64,000 nt of DNA from Paenibacillus spongiae (lineage in GTDB: Bacteria > Bacillota > Bacilli > Paenibacillales > Paenibacillaceae), in assembly GCF_024734895.1 (NCBI RefSeq), contig NZ_CP091430.1, positions 4,544,501 to 4,608,500 of the forward strand, given 5' to 3'. The position numbers and the translations under genes were made by a program. Below are positions 52,494-59,726 of this stretch, in pieces. The notes beneath the pieces are model-generated. The model saw only the letters and a list, made by a program, of their open reading frames with translations, was not told where the DNA came from and searched no databases. How positions within the stretch are numbered: the stretch's first letter is position 1; every line of letters starts with the position of its first letter.

Positions 52494-54233
52494 TTATTGC
52501 TCGGAACCCATGTCGAATTGCCGATGAAATGCATTCAAGCTCTCATGGATTTCCGCACTTGTCCGGCATTGCATTAAATCATCGAACAATGAACGGCTGT
52601 CTTGCTGCCTTAGGCTAAGCAGCCGTTCTTTTATAGGCAGAATCGCATGTGCGGACATACTCAGCTCATCGACGTCGAGTGCCAGCCAGATGGGCAGCGC
52701 CCGGACATCTCCTGCCAGCTCTCCGCAGACGCCAATATGCGTTCCATTGCGCTTCGCTGCTTCCACCGTCATCTTCAGCATGCGCAGGACAGCAGGATGA
52801 TAAGGCTCATAGAGGTGAGATATTTGATCGTTCATCCGGTCTACGGCCAGCGTGAACTGTACCAGATCATTCGTGCCGATACTGAAGAAGTCCACTTCTT
52901 TCGCCAGCATATCCGCAATCATGACTGCGGCTGGCAGCTCGATCATAATTCCGACCTCAATGTCGTTATTGAAGGCGATGCCCTCCGCTTGCAGCTCGCG
53001 CTTGGCTTCCTCCAGCAGCGCATTGGCCCCTCGGACCTCTTCGACGGACGATATGAGCGGATACATGATTTTCACTTCGCCATATGCACTCGTGCGCAGT
53101 ATGGCTCTTAGCTGCGTTTTGAACAGATCCGTTTTGTCCAGGCAAATGCGTATGGCACGATAGCCGAGAAACGGATTCTCCTCTTCCGGAAGCTCGAAAT
53201 AGTCCAGATGTTTATCCCCGCCGATATCGAGCGTGCGAATAATAAGCGATCTTCCGCTGAGCTGTTCCGCCACGTTCCGGTAGACGTCGGTCTGTTCCTC
53301 TTCCTTCGGCAGACGGTTGCGGTCCATATAGAGAAATTCGGTCCGGAACAGCCCTACCCCGCTCGTCCCGCTGCTGAGGGCAACGTCCAGCTCCTTGATG
53401 GAGCTTATATTGGCCGACAGCTCGATTACTTTGCCGTCCGGCGTCACAGAGCGGACTTGAGCGATTCCCTTAAGCCGTTGTCCGGCTTCTCTCTGGCGGT
53501 GCTGCTGCTCGGTATAATAGTCGATGAGCTTATCGTTCGGTTCCAGATGCACAATACCAGTGGCACCATCGATGATAAGCATATCTCCCGTTTGGATCAC
53601 ATGATCCAGCTTGCCTTCAATACCGACGACAAGCGGCACGCCCAGCGCTCTCGCCATGATCGAGGAATGCGAAGTCGTGCTGCCTGCCAGTGTGGCAATG
53701 CCGAGCACATGGTTGGGGTTTAGATGGGCGAGCTGCGATGGGGACAGCTCCTTGGCAACGAGAATGAAAGGCTGCGTATCGGCGGGAAGCGTAATTTCCG
53801 GCGCGCCTAGCAGATGCTTCAGCAGCCGGTTGCCGACGTCTTTGATGTCCAGTGCGCGCTCTTTCATATATTCGTCATCGAGCAGATCGAACATCGTTAC
53901 GAAATGATCGATGGCTTCCTTGACCGCGACTTCAGCGGCTTTATATTGGCGCTGGATAATCCCTTGAATTTCATTCATGAATACGGGGTCTTCCAAAATG
54001 GCAATGTGCGCATCGAAGATGTAGCTCTCTTCGGTTCCGACCACTTCCCGAAGCTCGTCTTTCATCTGCTCGATCTCACTCTTGGACGTGCGGATTCCTT
54101 CATATAGCCGATCGAACTCTCTGGCTAAATCTCCAACGTCGATTTTCTGTTCCGGTAAATCCCATTCCCAATTCGGCAGTACGAACGCTTTACCGATCGC
54201 AATACCAGCAGAAGCTCCTATTCCATGAATCAT
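52494..54233 (-). CDS. ptsI: PTS enzyme I (phosphoenolpyruvate-protein phosphotransferase)
   Basis: Transfers phosphate from PEP to HPr. The 579-residue protein begins MIHGIGASAGIAIGKAF, has phospho-His189 in GSTTSHSSIMAR, the PEP-binding region GLFRTEFLYMDR and the C-terminal GVCGELAGD with the conserved cysteine. The ATG overlaps the EIICBA stop (ATGA), so the longer open frame to 54326 is not used. In most Bacillota ptsI follows ptsH; here it follows the sugar permease and no ptsH is nearby. Confidence 0.95.
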   Translation of the reverse strand: MIHGIGASAGIAIGKAFVLPNWEWDLPEQKIDVGDLAREFDRLYEGIRTSKSEIEQMKDELREVVGTEESYIFDAHIAILEDPVFMNEIQGIIQRQYKAAEVAVKEAIDHFVTMFDLLDDEYMKERALDIKDVGNRLLKHLLGAPEITLPADTQPFILVAKELSPSQLAHLNPNHVLGIATLAGSTTSHSSIMARALGVPLVVGIEGKLDHVIQTGDMLIIDGATGIVHLEPNDKLIDYYTEQQHRQREAGQRLKGIAQVRSVTPDGKVIELSANISSIKELDVALSSGTSGVGLFRTEFLYMDRNRLPKEEEQTDVYRNVAEQLSGRSLIIRTLDIGGDKHLDYFELPEEENPFLGYRAIRICLDKTDLFKTQLRAILRTSAYGEVKIMYPLISSVEEVRGANALLEEAKRELQAEGIAFNNDIEVGIMIELPAAVMIADMLAKEVDFFSIGTNDLVQFTLAVDRMNDQISHLYEPYHPAVLRMLKMTVEAAKRNGTHIGVCGELAGDVRALPIWLALDVDELSMSAHAILPIKERLLSLRQQDSRSLFDDLMQCRTSAEIHESLNAFHRQFDMGSEQ

Positions 54234-56113
54234 TCTGTATCCCCTCCACTGCTTCTCTCTTTCAATACAACCGACATGACTGACGCTTGTCCTCGTTTCA
54301 CGCTCTTGAACGGCGCGAAGCTCCAAGAGGAGACACGATCGGAATTCGTAATCACCATCGGTGTTGCAAGTGATTTAGAGCCGGCACGGACACGCTGCAG
54401 GTCGAACCTGATCAGCAGTTGACCGGGCTTCACCTGATCCCCTTCCTCTACAACCGCGGTAAAACCCGCTCCTTTCATCTGCGACGTATCGATGCCGATA
54501 TGAAGCAGGACGTCAAGTCCTTCAGGCGTTCGAATCCCTATCGCATGCAAGGTTGGATATAAATGGACAACCTTTCCGTTCACAGGCGATACCAGCTCGC
54601 CTTTATCCGGTAAGAACGCGACGCCATCGCCGACTAGCTTCCCTGCGAAGATCGGATCCGGAACTTCGCTAAGCGGTATCATCCGCCCTTGCATAGGGGA
54701 ACTGAACAGAACTCGGGACAAATCGCGGCGTATCGCCTTGTCCATCTCTTCCCGGATAAGCTCCGAATAGGTGCCGAAAACGATTTGCACGTTGCCGCCG
54801 CCCAAACGAATGACGCCTGCCGCTCCCAAGTTTTTGAGCGCGTTCGTATCGATCAGCTTATCGCTGGCTACCTTCAGGCGAAGCCTCGTAATGCAGGCTT
54901 CCATCTGCTGTATGTTCTCCTTGCCGCCAATCGCCTGCAGAATAAGCGGAGCCCGATAAGGTATGTCGCCCGCCCATTCGTCAAGCTGGGATCCTTCCTC
55001 TCGGCCCGGCGTCGGAATACGGAAGCGTCTGATTGCCCATCGGAAGAGAAAATAGTAAATCATCCCGAATACGATACCGATTGGCAGCAGCAGCCAGCCT
55101 CGAGTAGCCAAGTGCTCGTTAATCAAATAATCGATCGCGCCGGCGGAGAAGGAAAAACCGTGCCGGATGCCCAGTTCATATGTAATCCACATGATAACGC
55201 CCGAGAGCAGAGCATGGACAACGAACAAATATGGTGCGACGAAAAGAAAAGCGAACTCGATCGGTTCCGTGACGCCCGTTAAAAAGGAAGCGAGCGCCGC
55301 CGACATAAACGTCACGCGAATTTTGGGCTTTAAGTCTTCCCTTGCCTCATGAATTATGGCAAAGGCGATGGCCGGCAGCGCAAACATCATCGTCGGATAT
55401 AAGCCGGCCATGAATGCTCCGGCGGTCGGATCACCGGCGAAGAAACGCGGCAAATCCCCGAATACCATCGATCCGTCCGACAGCTCGTACCCACCTACCT
55501 GAAACCAAAATACGTGGGAGACGAGATGATGCAGGCCGAAAACGACGAGAATACGCAGGACGAATCCGAAGAGAAAGACCCCAAAGCCGCCTCCGGATGA
55601 AACGATATTGCCTAGCTCAACCATGAGATCTCTAATATTAGGAGCTATTTCGACCATCAGAATGCCCCAGAAGGCTGCAAAAAAACTGACGATCAACGGT
55701 ACGAAGCGCGGACCGCCAAAAAATTGAATATACTCGGGCAGCTTAATGGACTTATACCGCTCATTAAATAAACTGGTCACATATCCAATCATCGCACCGG
55801 TAAGCACGGTTGGTTCCAGTTCGTACCGGCTGGCTCCGATAATGCTTGTATAGATAAACATCCCCGCCAATGCCGCTAATCCGGCTGAGATGGCATTGCC
55901 GGTCATGCCCATTGCTACGCCAAAGGCAAATAAATACGGCAGAAACGCGAACAGCGCATACCCGGCCGTCTGCAGGTGGCCCGGCATGCCCGGCATGCCG
56001 AAACTCTCCCATGGCAAGCCGCTTAAGCTCAAAAATATTGCAGCTGCGGGAAGCACGATCATAGGCAGCATAAGCGACCTTCCCAGCTGCTGCAGTTGCC
56101 CCATCACATTCAT
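54230..56113 (-). CDS. PTS EIICBA permease, glucose/N-acetylglucosamine class
   Basis: A 627-residue fused permease. EIIC (about 1-365, ten or so helices) has HHLVSHVFWFQVG and FLTGVTEPIEFAFLF. EIIB (about 385-465) has phospho-Cys407 in MEACITRLRL. EIIA (about 475-615) has the His pair His523 (TLHAIGI) and His538 (LLHIGIDT), the latter phosphorylated. Domain order C-B-A matches PtsG and NagE; the sequence alone does not tell glucose from GlcNAc. It is coupled to ptsI. A cre-like site and a leader hairpin lie upstream. Confidence 0.92.
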   Translation of the reverse strand: MNVMGQLQQLGRSLMLPMIVLPAAAIFLSLSGLPWESFGMPGMPGHLQTAGYALFAFLPYLFAFGVAMGMTGNAISAGLAALAGMFIYTSIIGASRYELEPTVLTGAMIGYVTSLFNERYKSIKLPEYIQFFGGPRFVPLIVSFFAAFWGILMVEIAPNIRDLMVELGNIVSSGGGFGVFLFGFVLRILVVFGLHHLVSHVFWFQVGGYELSDGSMVFGDLPRFFAGDPTAGAFMAGLYPTMMFALPAIAFAIIHEAREDLKPKIRVTFMSAALASFLTGVTEPIEFAFLFVAPYLFVVHALLSGVIMWITYELGIRHGFSFSAGAIDYLINEHLATRGWLLLPIGIVFGMIYYFLFRWAIRRFRIPTPGREEGSQLDEWAGDIPYRAPLILQAIGGKENIQQMEACITRLRLKVASDKLIDTNALKNLGAAGVIRLGGGNVQIVFGTYSELIREEMDKAIRRDLSRVLFSSPMQGRMIPLSEVPDPIFAGKLVGDGVAFLPDKGELVSPVNGKVVHLYPTLHAIGIRTPEGLDVLLHIGIDTSQMKGAGFTAVVEEGDQVKPGQLLIRFDLQRVRAGSKSLATPMVITNSDRVSSWSFAPFKSVKRGQASVMSVVLKERSSGGDTE

Positions 56114-56249: not shown

Positions 56250-56281
56250 AAAAGAAAAACGGCAGACCCAGGGGTCCGCCG
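56250..56281 (-). terminator. intrinsic terminator of the Gln-rich repeat protein gene
   Basis: Minus-strand stem CGGCGGACC / GGTCTGCCG (one G-T pair) with a 4-base loop, followed by TTTTTCTTTTG, 38 bases after the stop. Confidence 0.88.
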
Positions 56282-56318
56282 CCACAAACGAATACACTTT
56301 TGTGCCCGCCCTCGTTTG

Positions 56319-56993
56319 TTAGAAACGCTGGCCGAACTGGGATTGCCCGCCTGCCGTATAACCGCCAACGTGAGAGATGACCGGACCAGCCTGCTGAATC
56401 TGTCCTGCCGCTTGGTAGACGGGATGGAACTGCGATTGTGCTTGCGAGCTGAAATTCGAGGCTTGGAAAGATTGCTGTCCCATCTGAGCGGAGCTGCGGG
56501 AAGCATTCTGAGCAGCCGTAAAGCCGAATTTCGAAATGATCGGCTGTTGTTGTTGTTGTGCCATCGAAGCTTGCATTTGCGGCTGTTGTTGAGCCATCGA
56601 AGCTTGCATTTGCGGCTGTTGTTGAGCCATCGAAGCTTGCATTTGCGGCTGTTGTTGAGCCATCGAAGCTTGCATTTGTGGCTGTTGCTGTTGCTTTGAA
56701 TAGAAATCCTGGCCGTTCGAATAACCGACACGCGAGATTACCGGACCGACAGAAGCATTCATGCCGAACCCGCTTCCTTGCATGCCGGAACGCGATTGCT
56801 GGGACAAGTTTTGATTAGATTGAGCAGCTGTATAACCAACATGGGAAATAACCGGCCCAGCATTCTGAGCGGAGATGCCGCCTCTTGATTTAGGAATGCC
56901 TTGATATTGGGACTGGACATAGCCTACGGGCTGGTACTTATTCGATTGATTGCCGGCTTGTTGGTTAAACATCTGCTGGTTGTTTTGAAACAC
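56319..56993 (-). CDS. Gln-rich low-complexity protein with GPVIS-VGY repeats
   Basis: A 224-residue protein starting with GTG (GGAGG 7 bases upstream). It has four copies of a short motif: GPVISHVGYTAAQ, GPVISRVGYSNGQ, QPIISKFGFTAAQ and GPVISHVGGYTAGG. Between copies two and three lie four tandem PQMQASMAQQQ units of 33 bp. Composition is dominated by Gln, Ser, Gly and Ala with no Cys, no Trp, no signal peptide and no membrane segment. Own terminator, so it is a real gene. A structural or surface role, for example in spore coat, is speculation; no known family is recognised. Confidence 0.85.
   Translation of the reverse strand: MFQNNQQMFNQQAGNQSNKYQPVGYVQSQYQGIPKSRGGISAQNAGPVISHVGYTAAQSNQNLSQQSRSGMQGSGFGMNASVGPVISRVGYSNGQDFYSKQQQQPQMQASMAQQQPQMQASMAQQQPQMQASMAQQQPQMQASMAQQQQQPIISKFGFTAAQNASRSSAQMGQQSFQASNFSSQAQSQFHPVYQAAGQIQQAGPVISHVGGYTAGGQSQFGQRF
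56561..56692. repeat. four tandem 33-bp repeats inside the Gln-rich gene
   Basis: Units start at 56561, 56594, 56627 and 56660. The first three are nearly identical and the fourth has two or three substitutions. The length is a multiple of three, so copy-number change keeps the frame. Confidence 0.93.
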
Positions 56994-57098
56994 GTCTTGT
57001 CCTCCTCGATAAATTCGTTATTGGATTTTACGCAAATCGGCAAGAGCCATTGCGGAAACCTAACTTATTGTTGGAGTGACAAGACGAATTTATGTCCG

Positions 57099-57533
57099 TT
57101 AGGATTTGGATTTTCCTTGAGGCAGAAGAATGGAATCCTCTACCTTAATGCACCGGTCCATAATGATCTGGACGCCGCCCTTCTGTGCGATCGCTGCAGC
57201 TTCATCATTATGAACGCCAAGCTGCAGCCAGAGCACTTTAGCCCCGATAGCAACCGTCTCTTCTGCGATTGGAGGCGTATGCTCGCTGCGGCGGAACACA
57301 TTCACCAAATCGACAGGATGGGGGATGTCTTTTAGGGACGGATAGCATTTCTCTCCCAGAATGACATCCGCATTGGGATTAACCGGAATAATCCGGTACC
57401 CCTTGGCCTGCATCGCCTCCGATACCATATAAGAGGTTCGCTCCGGATTATCGGATAAGCCAACTACCGCTATCGTATTCGTTTGTTCCAAGATCTGTTT
57501 GATTTCGTCACGCGATGGATTTTGGAAAGTCAT
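57099..57533 (-). CDS. CoA-binding domain protein (YccU family)
   Basis: A 144-residue Rossmann-fold protein with the CoA-binding motif TIAVVGLSDNPERTSY and the family segments IPVNPNA, FRRSEHTP and LWLQLGVHN. It resembles the N-terminal part of succinyl-CoA synthetase alpha, without catalytic residues. The ATG at 57533 is taken from the family N-terminus; the frame reaches 57569. Function unknown beyond nucleotide binding. Confidence 0.88.
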   Translation of the reverse strand: MTFQNPSRDEIKQILEQTNTIAVVGLSDNPERTSYMVSEAMQAKGYRIIPVNPNADVILGEKCYPSLKDIPHPVDLVNVFRRSEHTPPIAEETVAIGAKVLWLQLGVHNDEAAAIAQKGGVQIIMDRCIKVEDSILLPQGKSKS

Positions 57534-57590
57534 TCTTGAACACATCCTCTCCTGATTATCATACCCCAACCCATAAAGATATGTTTACAC

Positions 57591-58956: not shown

Positions 58957-59328
58957 TCAGTTCAGCATATGCCAAACGAATGCATAGCCCAGAGAAGTCA
59001 ATGCGAAGCCCGCGGCCAAAGAACCAATACCGTATCGAATTGCTTCGCCGTAGGAACGCTGCCTTGCCAGCGTTACCAGCTGTACCATGAAGGTGGAGAA
59101 GGTGGTGAAGCCGCCCAGCAATCCGACAGCAATAAAAAAATATAGCGCCGGCTTCGGATTATGGCTGTATAAGCCGGCCACTATGCCGATCAATAGCGAC
59201 CCAGCCGCATTGATGACCATCGTACCCATATATGGACGATAACCCCGGCTTTGAACCAGCCTGCCGATCCCATAACGTACAGCAGAACCGACTGCCCCGC
59301 CCAAAGCAATTAGGAAAAGGGTAATCAT
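58957..59328 (-). CDS. crcB: fluoride channel protein FluC/CrcB, second copy
   Basis: A 123-residue membrane protein with four helices; passes F- out of the cell as a dual-topology or hetero dimer. Family motifs: GGAVGSAVRYGIGRL, and LGGFTTFSTFMVQ with the phenylalanine box. It overlaps the first copy by ATGA. Two adjacent copies in Gram-positives normally form a heterodimer of opposite orientation. Confidence 0.93.
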   Translation of the reverse strand: MITLFLIALGGAVGSAVRYGIGRLVQSRGYRPYMGTMVINAAGSLLIGIVAGLYSHNPKPALYFFIAVGLLGGFTTFSTFMVQLVTLARQRSYGEAIRYGIGSLAAGFALTSLGYAFVWHMLN

Positions 59329-59726
59329 GACGACTGTCCTTCCTCTTCAGGCTTGCGGATCGGCGTGAATAGATATTGGCCGGCAAGAACGGCTAATAAG
59401 CCAATCGCCATACTAGATGCAGCGTACAGTACTGCTGATAGAAGATGACCCTGCTCAAGCATTTGAACGGTCTCCATGCTGAAGGATGAAAAGGTTGTAA
59501 ACGCCCCGATAAAGCCGGTTCCAACCGCCTCTCTCCAAAATTCGCTCAACACAGAACGGGCGAAGGCCGCAAATACCGCACCCAGGACGAAGCTGCCCGC
59601 TATATTGCAGACGAACGTCGCCCACGGCCAAGAAGAACTAGACGAATACGGCAGCAGCAGGTTCACGCCATATCTGGCAGCAGCGCCAAGCGCTCCTAGC
59701 AACGCGACCGAAACGGCAGTTCTCAT
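59325..59726 (-). CDS. crcB: fluoride channel protein FluC/CrcB, first copy
   Basis: A 133-residue four-helix membrane protein, partner of the following copy. Motifs: LGALGAAARYGVNLLL and FIGAFTTFSSFSMET. Its ATG overlaps the aroK stop (ATGA). I see no fluoride riboswitch in the gap before aroK (60251-60409). Confidence 0.93.
   Translation of the reverse strand: MRTAVSVALLGALGAAARYGVNLLLPYSSSSSWPWATFVCNIAGSFVLGAVFAAFARSVLSEFWREAVGTGFIGAFTTFSSFSMETVQMLEQGHLLSAVLYAASSMAIGLLAVLAGQYLFTPIRKPEEEGQSS

Follow-up and report, generated by a model that had tools for sequence, protein, structure and literature searches.

The gene considered here encodes a member of a real, previously undescribed family of Gln-rich repeat proteins. 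It is located in a 64,000-nucleotide stretch of Paenibacillus spongiae DNA, hereafter called the window, and judging from the sequence upstream of it and of its homologues it is probably expressed in the forespore in a sigma-G-dependent manner. In the reading that we favour, to which we give slightly less than an even chance, its product would be a storage or core-matrix protein of the spore that resembles gamma-type SASPs without being homologous to them.

A family of Gln-rich repeat proteins with predicted disorder

The original prediction was of a Gln-rich open reading frame with four copies of a repeat motif, a GTG start codon and an AGGAGG ribosome-binding site, all of which we confirmed (Table 1). 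The 224-residue product comprises 26% Gln, 13% Ser, 11% Ala and 10% Gly, and it is devoid of Cys and Trp residues. Four occurrences of P[VI]ISx[VF]G were counted, as compared with a maximum of 0 when the same residues were shuffled 20,000 times, and the PVISxVG-type motifs stand around a 33-bp tandem repeat. Of this predicted architecture, the PVIS motifs are kept in relatives, whereas the tandem block has expanded locally, the closest relative having approximately one unit. Also kept is an N-terminal YQPxG(Y/F)VQSxYQG motif, the best-conserved stretch of the family in our alignments, although it is missing from the members of genomes G001, G005, G008 and G011, among others. As for the predicted terminator, an 11-pair hairpin is present, but the hairpin scan yielded three terminator-like sites versus a shuffled mean of 1.3 (sd 1.3), so that the count alone is no higher than chance.

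Table 1. Features of the gene and its surroundings (positions are those of the window)
Feature	Position	Strand	Evidence
Coding sequence, Gln-rich repeat protein, 224 aa	56319..56993	-	ORF; dN/dS about 0.12; family searches
Ribosome-binding site AGGAGG	57001..57006	-	Sequence; kept in upstream alignment of relatives
N-terminal motif YQPVGYVQSQYQG, residues 20-32	56898..56936	-	Alignments
Motif copy 1, GPVISHVGYTAAQ, residues 46-58	56820..56858	-	Protein sequence
Motif copy 2, GPVISRVGYSNGQ, residues 83-95	56709..56747	-	Protein sequence
Motif copy 3, QPIISKFGFTAAQ, residues 150-162	56508..56546	-	Protein sequence
Motif copy 4, GPVISHVGGYTAGGQ, residues 203-217	56343..56387	-	Protein sequence
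33-bp tandem repeat (Q/M/A/S block), 4.2 copies, 98% matches	56551..56687	-	DNA repeat
Terminator-like hairpin, 11 pairs	56258..56283	-	Hairpin scan
Sigma-G-like promoter block: ACATA (57095-57091), 18 bases, AACAATA (57072-57066)	57066..57095	-	Alignment, matrices; 6.6 bits, weak here
Conserved element directly after the -10, AGnnAGGcTT in relatives	57056..57065	-	Position counts, pattern search
Upstream neighbour, CoA-binding protein (PF13380)	57099..57569	-	Neighbour comparison; family match
Downstream neighbour, PTS EIICBA-type sugar transporter, here called ptsG	54230..56113	-	Neighbour comparison; family match

The window protein has no predicted fold, with a mean pLDDT of 43, a pTM of 0.13 and no residue reaching a pLDDT of 70 in an AlphaFold model made with 21 sequences. 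Among the 33 members described below, 30 are on the disordered side of the charge-hydropathy line. With regard to a secreted matrix or surface-layer protein, for which a signal peptide or membrane helix would be expected, a hydropathy scan of the same members detected no membrane-like stretch (highest 19-residue Kyte-Doolittle mean, 0.86).

Of 59 genomes (that of the window and those of relatives), 22 gave matches in a protein search. Using a family profile built from an alignment of 21 proteins, we obtained matches in 65 of the 295 genomes drawn from the taxonomic family of the window, and 20 of the 22 same-genus genomes listed in the profile search were matched. Among 299 genomes sampled across the class, the profile matched the window's own genome alone. 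A scan of genome contigs yielded 78 pattern matches, 33 of which were confirmed as family loci, 31 titled Paenibacillus and 2 Thermobacillus; because its seed pattern demanded G(Y/F)VQSxYQ, members lacking the motif were missed and the named members harbour it by construction. The family has so far been seen only in Paenibacillus-type bacteria. The window protein and the 32 named members range from 191 to 276 residues, with 14-27% Gln, and their 7,322 residues include 22 Lys but 0 Cys. The window protein is 82% identical to its P. mendelii relative, and the comparison of the two genes (dN 0.138, dS 1.108) indicates purifying selection, as the dN/dS ratio is about 0.12; ptsG and aroA gave about 0.02 and 0.03, respectively, in the same comparison, and the value for the CoA-binding gene, being out of register, was left aside. 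The gene is conserved, as the original prediction demands.

No credible family match was obtained in Pfam and NCBIfam searches with the window protein and 21 members, which bears out the prediction of an undescribed low-complexity family without known domains; none of the 21 belongs to a characterised family in these databases. Matches of single members to unrelated families, e.g. Pantoate_transf (2.6e-7), were discarded as low-complexity matches. In this respect, a repeat form found in locus L018 and others, PVLAHAGLTAQ, resembles a stretch of ketopantoate hydroxymethyltransferase, and 1 of the 21 members matches Pantoate_transf at that E value; this likeness is probably a case of convergence. 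Searches of the PDB and of plasmids gave no match, and of the 32 pattern matches in viral contigs, 0 encode a relative. In the literature covered (open-licence papers, titles and abstract starts), the string GPVISHVGY was absent from the text and no description of the family was recognised.

A fixed genomic slot

The family gene is mostly found in a fixed slot before ptsG. It is flanked by aroA, ptsG and ptsI in 31 of the 33 named loci and by the gene for a CoA-binding protein in 30. L069 and L090 have none of these neighbours, and L065 lacks the CoA-binding gene only. In G001, G005 and G011, the family gene is located away from this slot.

We compared the slot with that of 24 genomes having no family match in the protein and profile searches or, in the case of the latter three, a match elsewhere in the genome. 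The CoA-binding gene is present in all 24 and is followed by ptsG in 21; at the other sites, ptsI comes next (L225) or neither gene is within reach (L234 and L235). The family upstream block was found at 0 of the 24 CoA-binding-gene sites. ORFs passing a composition filter are present at 8 of these sites, none of them with family motifs as judged by eye; another ORF filter selected nothing in L241 and L246. Elsewhere in the window (58957-59726), two small neighbouring genes, which we take to be crcB-like, lie between aroA and aroK; they are matched in some relatives and unmatched in others.

A sigma-G-like promoter block

A single conserved block, NNATA-N18-NANANTA, is present in all 33 upstream regions, the pattern having been drawn from the same alignment in which it was counted. 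To assign it, we used as a sigma-G control 21 SASP genes from six genomes of the genus, and as other controls 14 genes each, also from the genus, of spoIIIAA, spoIID, dpaA and spoIVA. As in B. subtilis, the SASP genes were taken to depend on sigma-G, spoIIIAA and spoIID on sigma-E, and dpaA on sigma-K. When scored with consensus strings, SASP, spoIIIAA, spoIID and dpaA genes each ranked highest for the expected sigma factor. On the family, the same strings gave z-scores of 8.6 for sigma-G, 5.9 for sigma-E and 4.6 for sigma-F, followed by sigma-D (2.4), sigma-K and sigma-A (0.8 each), sigma-H (0.2) and sigma-B (-0.5). The best string site coincided with the block in 21 of 33 regions for sigma-G, 20 for sigma-E and 16 for sigma-D-type sites.

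Matrices trained on the genus separated these possibilities further. With a sigma-G matrix built from the 21 SASP sites, the block outscored every other one of the 263 candidate sites in 32 of the 33 regions, that of the window among them. The block scored higher with sigma-G than with sigma-E in all 33 regions, by 9.8 bits on average, with a sigma-E matrix built from two genes only; the matrix controls (21/21, 14/14 and 14/14) were run on their own training genes. It is because of this ranking and of the consistent difference with sigma-E that we consider the window gene to be probably forespore-expressed, and at the level of the family the sequence evidence for a forespore promoter is good. 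Our initial reading of the block as a sigma-E site was abandoned since the genus controls favoured sigma-G, and a sigma-K site was set aside on the basis of the dpaA control.

Over shuffles, the sigma-G matrix gave a z-score of 18 for the family as compared with 2.9 for spoIIIAA, 2.5 for spoIID, 2.0 for dpaA and -2.4 for spoIVA, with the proviso that the 33 upstream sequences share ancestry and that such scores overstate their independence. The 95% level is exceeded in 25 of the 33 regions. The mean best score of the family, 9.9 bits, is about half that of SASP genes (18.5 bits), and the family -10 carries C or A where SASP sites carry T. The site of the window itself is weak, with 6.6 bits by the matrix, and with the consensus strings its score of 0.66 is below the shuffled mean of 0.709. 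The relocated copy of G001 is preceded by an exact sigma-G site, GAATA-N17-CATAATA (18.7 bits), and the other sites read by hand score 13.2 (L237), 9.5 (L238) and 8.6 bits (L240). SigE, SigF, SigG and SigK are reported to be conserved in all Paenibacillus genomes surveyed in one study (PMC12826061).

Upstream of spoIVA, in 14 genomes of the genus (L097-L114), the leader is long and strongly conserved; it contains GTCATA(A/T)T and a CAATAAG placed 15 bases downstream of the ATA, an arrangement unlike the sigma-E spacing of spoIIIAA.

Directly after the -10, a GGCTT-type element is as conserved as the -10 itself, with G in 33/33 and T in 32/33 sequences at two positions. It is not known to belong to any sigma-G consensus; binding of a forespore regulator is one possibility. 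This element, the metabolic neighbours aroA, ptsG and ptsI and the sigma-D-type sites found at the block would also fit a vegetative or stress protein, with a different sigma factor or regulator acting at the block. We regard such a non-sporulation role as quite improbable, given that the string z-scores for sigma-A, sigma-B, sigma-H and sigma-D contrast with that for sigma-G, and that no sigma-70-type site was seen upstream of the gene start on the gene's strand.

When up to two mismatches were allowed, the extended block occurred 17 times in the 59 genomes, in 15 cases ahead of a family gene; one of the remaining two matches precedes the same-slot gene of G036 (see below), and the other is unrelated (G058). 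At three mismatches, the level at which the window's own block is retrieved, matches due to chance arise, and the reversed control gives matches as well. A stricter block pattern gave three matches in the window's own genome versus six for the reversed control. A widespread regulon or RNA element was dismissed, since 15 of the 17 extended-block matches precede family genes.

Coat, scaffold or core protein

The original prediction proposed a sporulation coat or matrix role. The upstream block, being sigma-G-like, supports a role in sporulation; a coat role, which would require mother-cell expression, is not supported, as the block is nearer to the sigma-G sites of the genus than to the sigma-E and sigma-K control sites. 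That the protein is produced in the mother cell under sigma-E or sigma-K as part of the coat, crust or outer matrix, with repeats that would self-assemble and glutamines that might be cross-linked, is unlikely in our view. Low-complexity repeats containing Gln and Tyr do suit coat proteins, and the sigma-E consensus strings pointed to the block nearly as often as those of sigma-G. Moreover, GerG of Clostridioides difficile, a gel-forming Asn-rich repeat protein, is described as sigma-E controlled (PMC5241399). These arguments are countered by the lower scores of the genus-trained sigma-E matrix in all 33 regions, by the low sigma-K z-score and by the near absence of Lys in the family, which implies that Gln-Lys cross-links within it would be few.

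A second family copy, in P. glycinis (contig2, L090:4890-6047), joins the N-terminal part of the family protein, with YQPSGYVQSQYQGIP, to an alpha/beta hydrolase (Abhydrolase_1, E 4.6e-27). This fusion and the strong conservation of the N-terminal motif would be consistent with a forespore scaffold or gel protein, in which the motif holds or localises clients rather than the protein serving for storage. GerG, a spore protein that forms gels and is required for germination, provides a precedent, and by its description the family resembles it: GerG is likewise amide-rich and of low complexity, with variable internal repeats and predicted disorder, but it is rich in Asn and Met, under sigma-E control and restricted to C. 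difficile (PMC5241399). We ascribe a low probability to a scaffold or gel, because the fusion is a single case preceded by a degenerate block (4.9 bits), and some members (G001, G005, G008 and G011) lack the N-terminal motif.

Genome G036, from outside the window's taxonomic family, encodes a different repeat protein in this slot (L278:2299-3078, the same gene as in L248). Its gene shares with the window locus the neighbours aroA, CoA-binding gene, ptsG and ptsI, a similar upstream block (10.3 bits) and a YQPTGYVKSVYG motif. It differs by five copies of an HTSGYKG(N/D)QQGHD repeat with YREDSQ, and no Pfam or NCBIfam match was found for it at E up to 1. The slot and its promoter may predate the repeats. 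A more speculative proposal, which we consider rather doubtful, is that YQPxGYVQSxYQG is a portable tag directing proteins into the forespore core or a condensate, with a Gln-rich core matrix, a hydrolase fused to the tag in P. glycinis, and a single slot with one conserved forespore promoter whose repeats differ between families.

A putative counterpart of gamma-type SASPs

We favour, with the reservation expressed at the outset, a gamma-SASP-like store or core matrix, since this is what a Gln-rich, Cys-free, repeated and unfolded forespore protein would look like. SspE, the gamma-type SASP, serves as an amino-acid store. Its profile, PF04259, had matches in 0 of the 59 genomes, the window's own included, and the B. 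subtilis control was found; the window protein did not match the profile at E up to 10. GPR-type cleavage sites are present in 0 of the 33 members. Judged by these searches, the family protein is not a gamma-SASP, because it has neither a PF04259 match nor a GPR-type site. Nor would it be a general replacement for gamma-SASPs, as 230 of the 295 genomes of the taxonomic family have no match to the family profile. Compared with SspE, the family proteins are approximately 2.5 times as long; they contain Pro, Ile, Tyr and His, and acidic residues are rare. Both are Gln-rich, repeated and of low complexity, Gln-rich peptides of SspE being listed in PMC3003637. According to PMC3533761, SASP genes are sigma-G dependent, a likeness to the sigma-G-like block of the family. 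The same paper names SspE as one of the three SASPs that are most abundant in B. subtilis and states that most bacilli encode it and clostridia lack it. PMC3003637 and PMC6279783 state that SspE does not bind DNA.

We thus envisage a lineage-specific forespore gene, probably sigma-G-dependent, whose disordered, Cys-free product rich in Gln, Ser, Gly, Ala and Asn would accumulate in the spore core. There, it would constitute an amino-acid store and a dry-state filler or matrix, as SspE does in Bacillus. The PVISxxGY units might provide weakly sticky spacers within a polar chain, and the N-terminal YQPxGYVQSxYQG motif as a conserved handle for a partner. Forespore expression, location in the core and a storage or matrix role are what we infer from the features described above.

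If the product is a true forespore protein, it would represent an unrelated answer, in part of the Paenibacillaceae, to the need that SspE fulfils. The question is directly testable, as the candidate gene has a defined promoter, slot and motif, and the family may supply a tag with which proteins could be loaded into spores.
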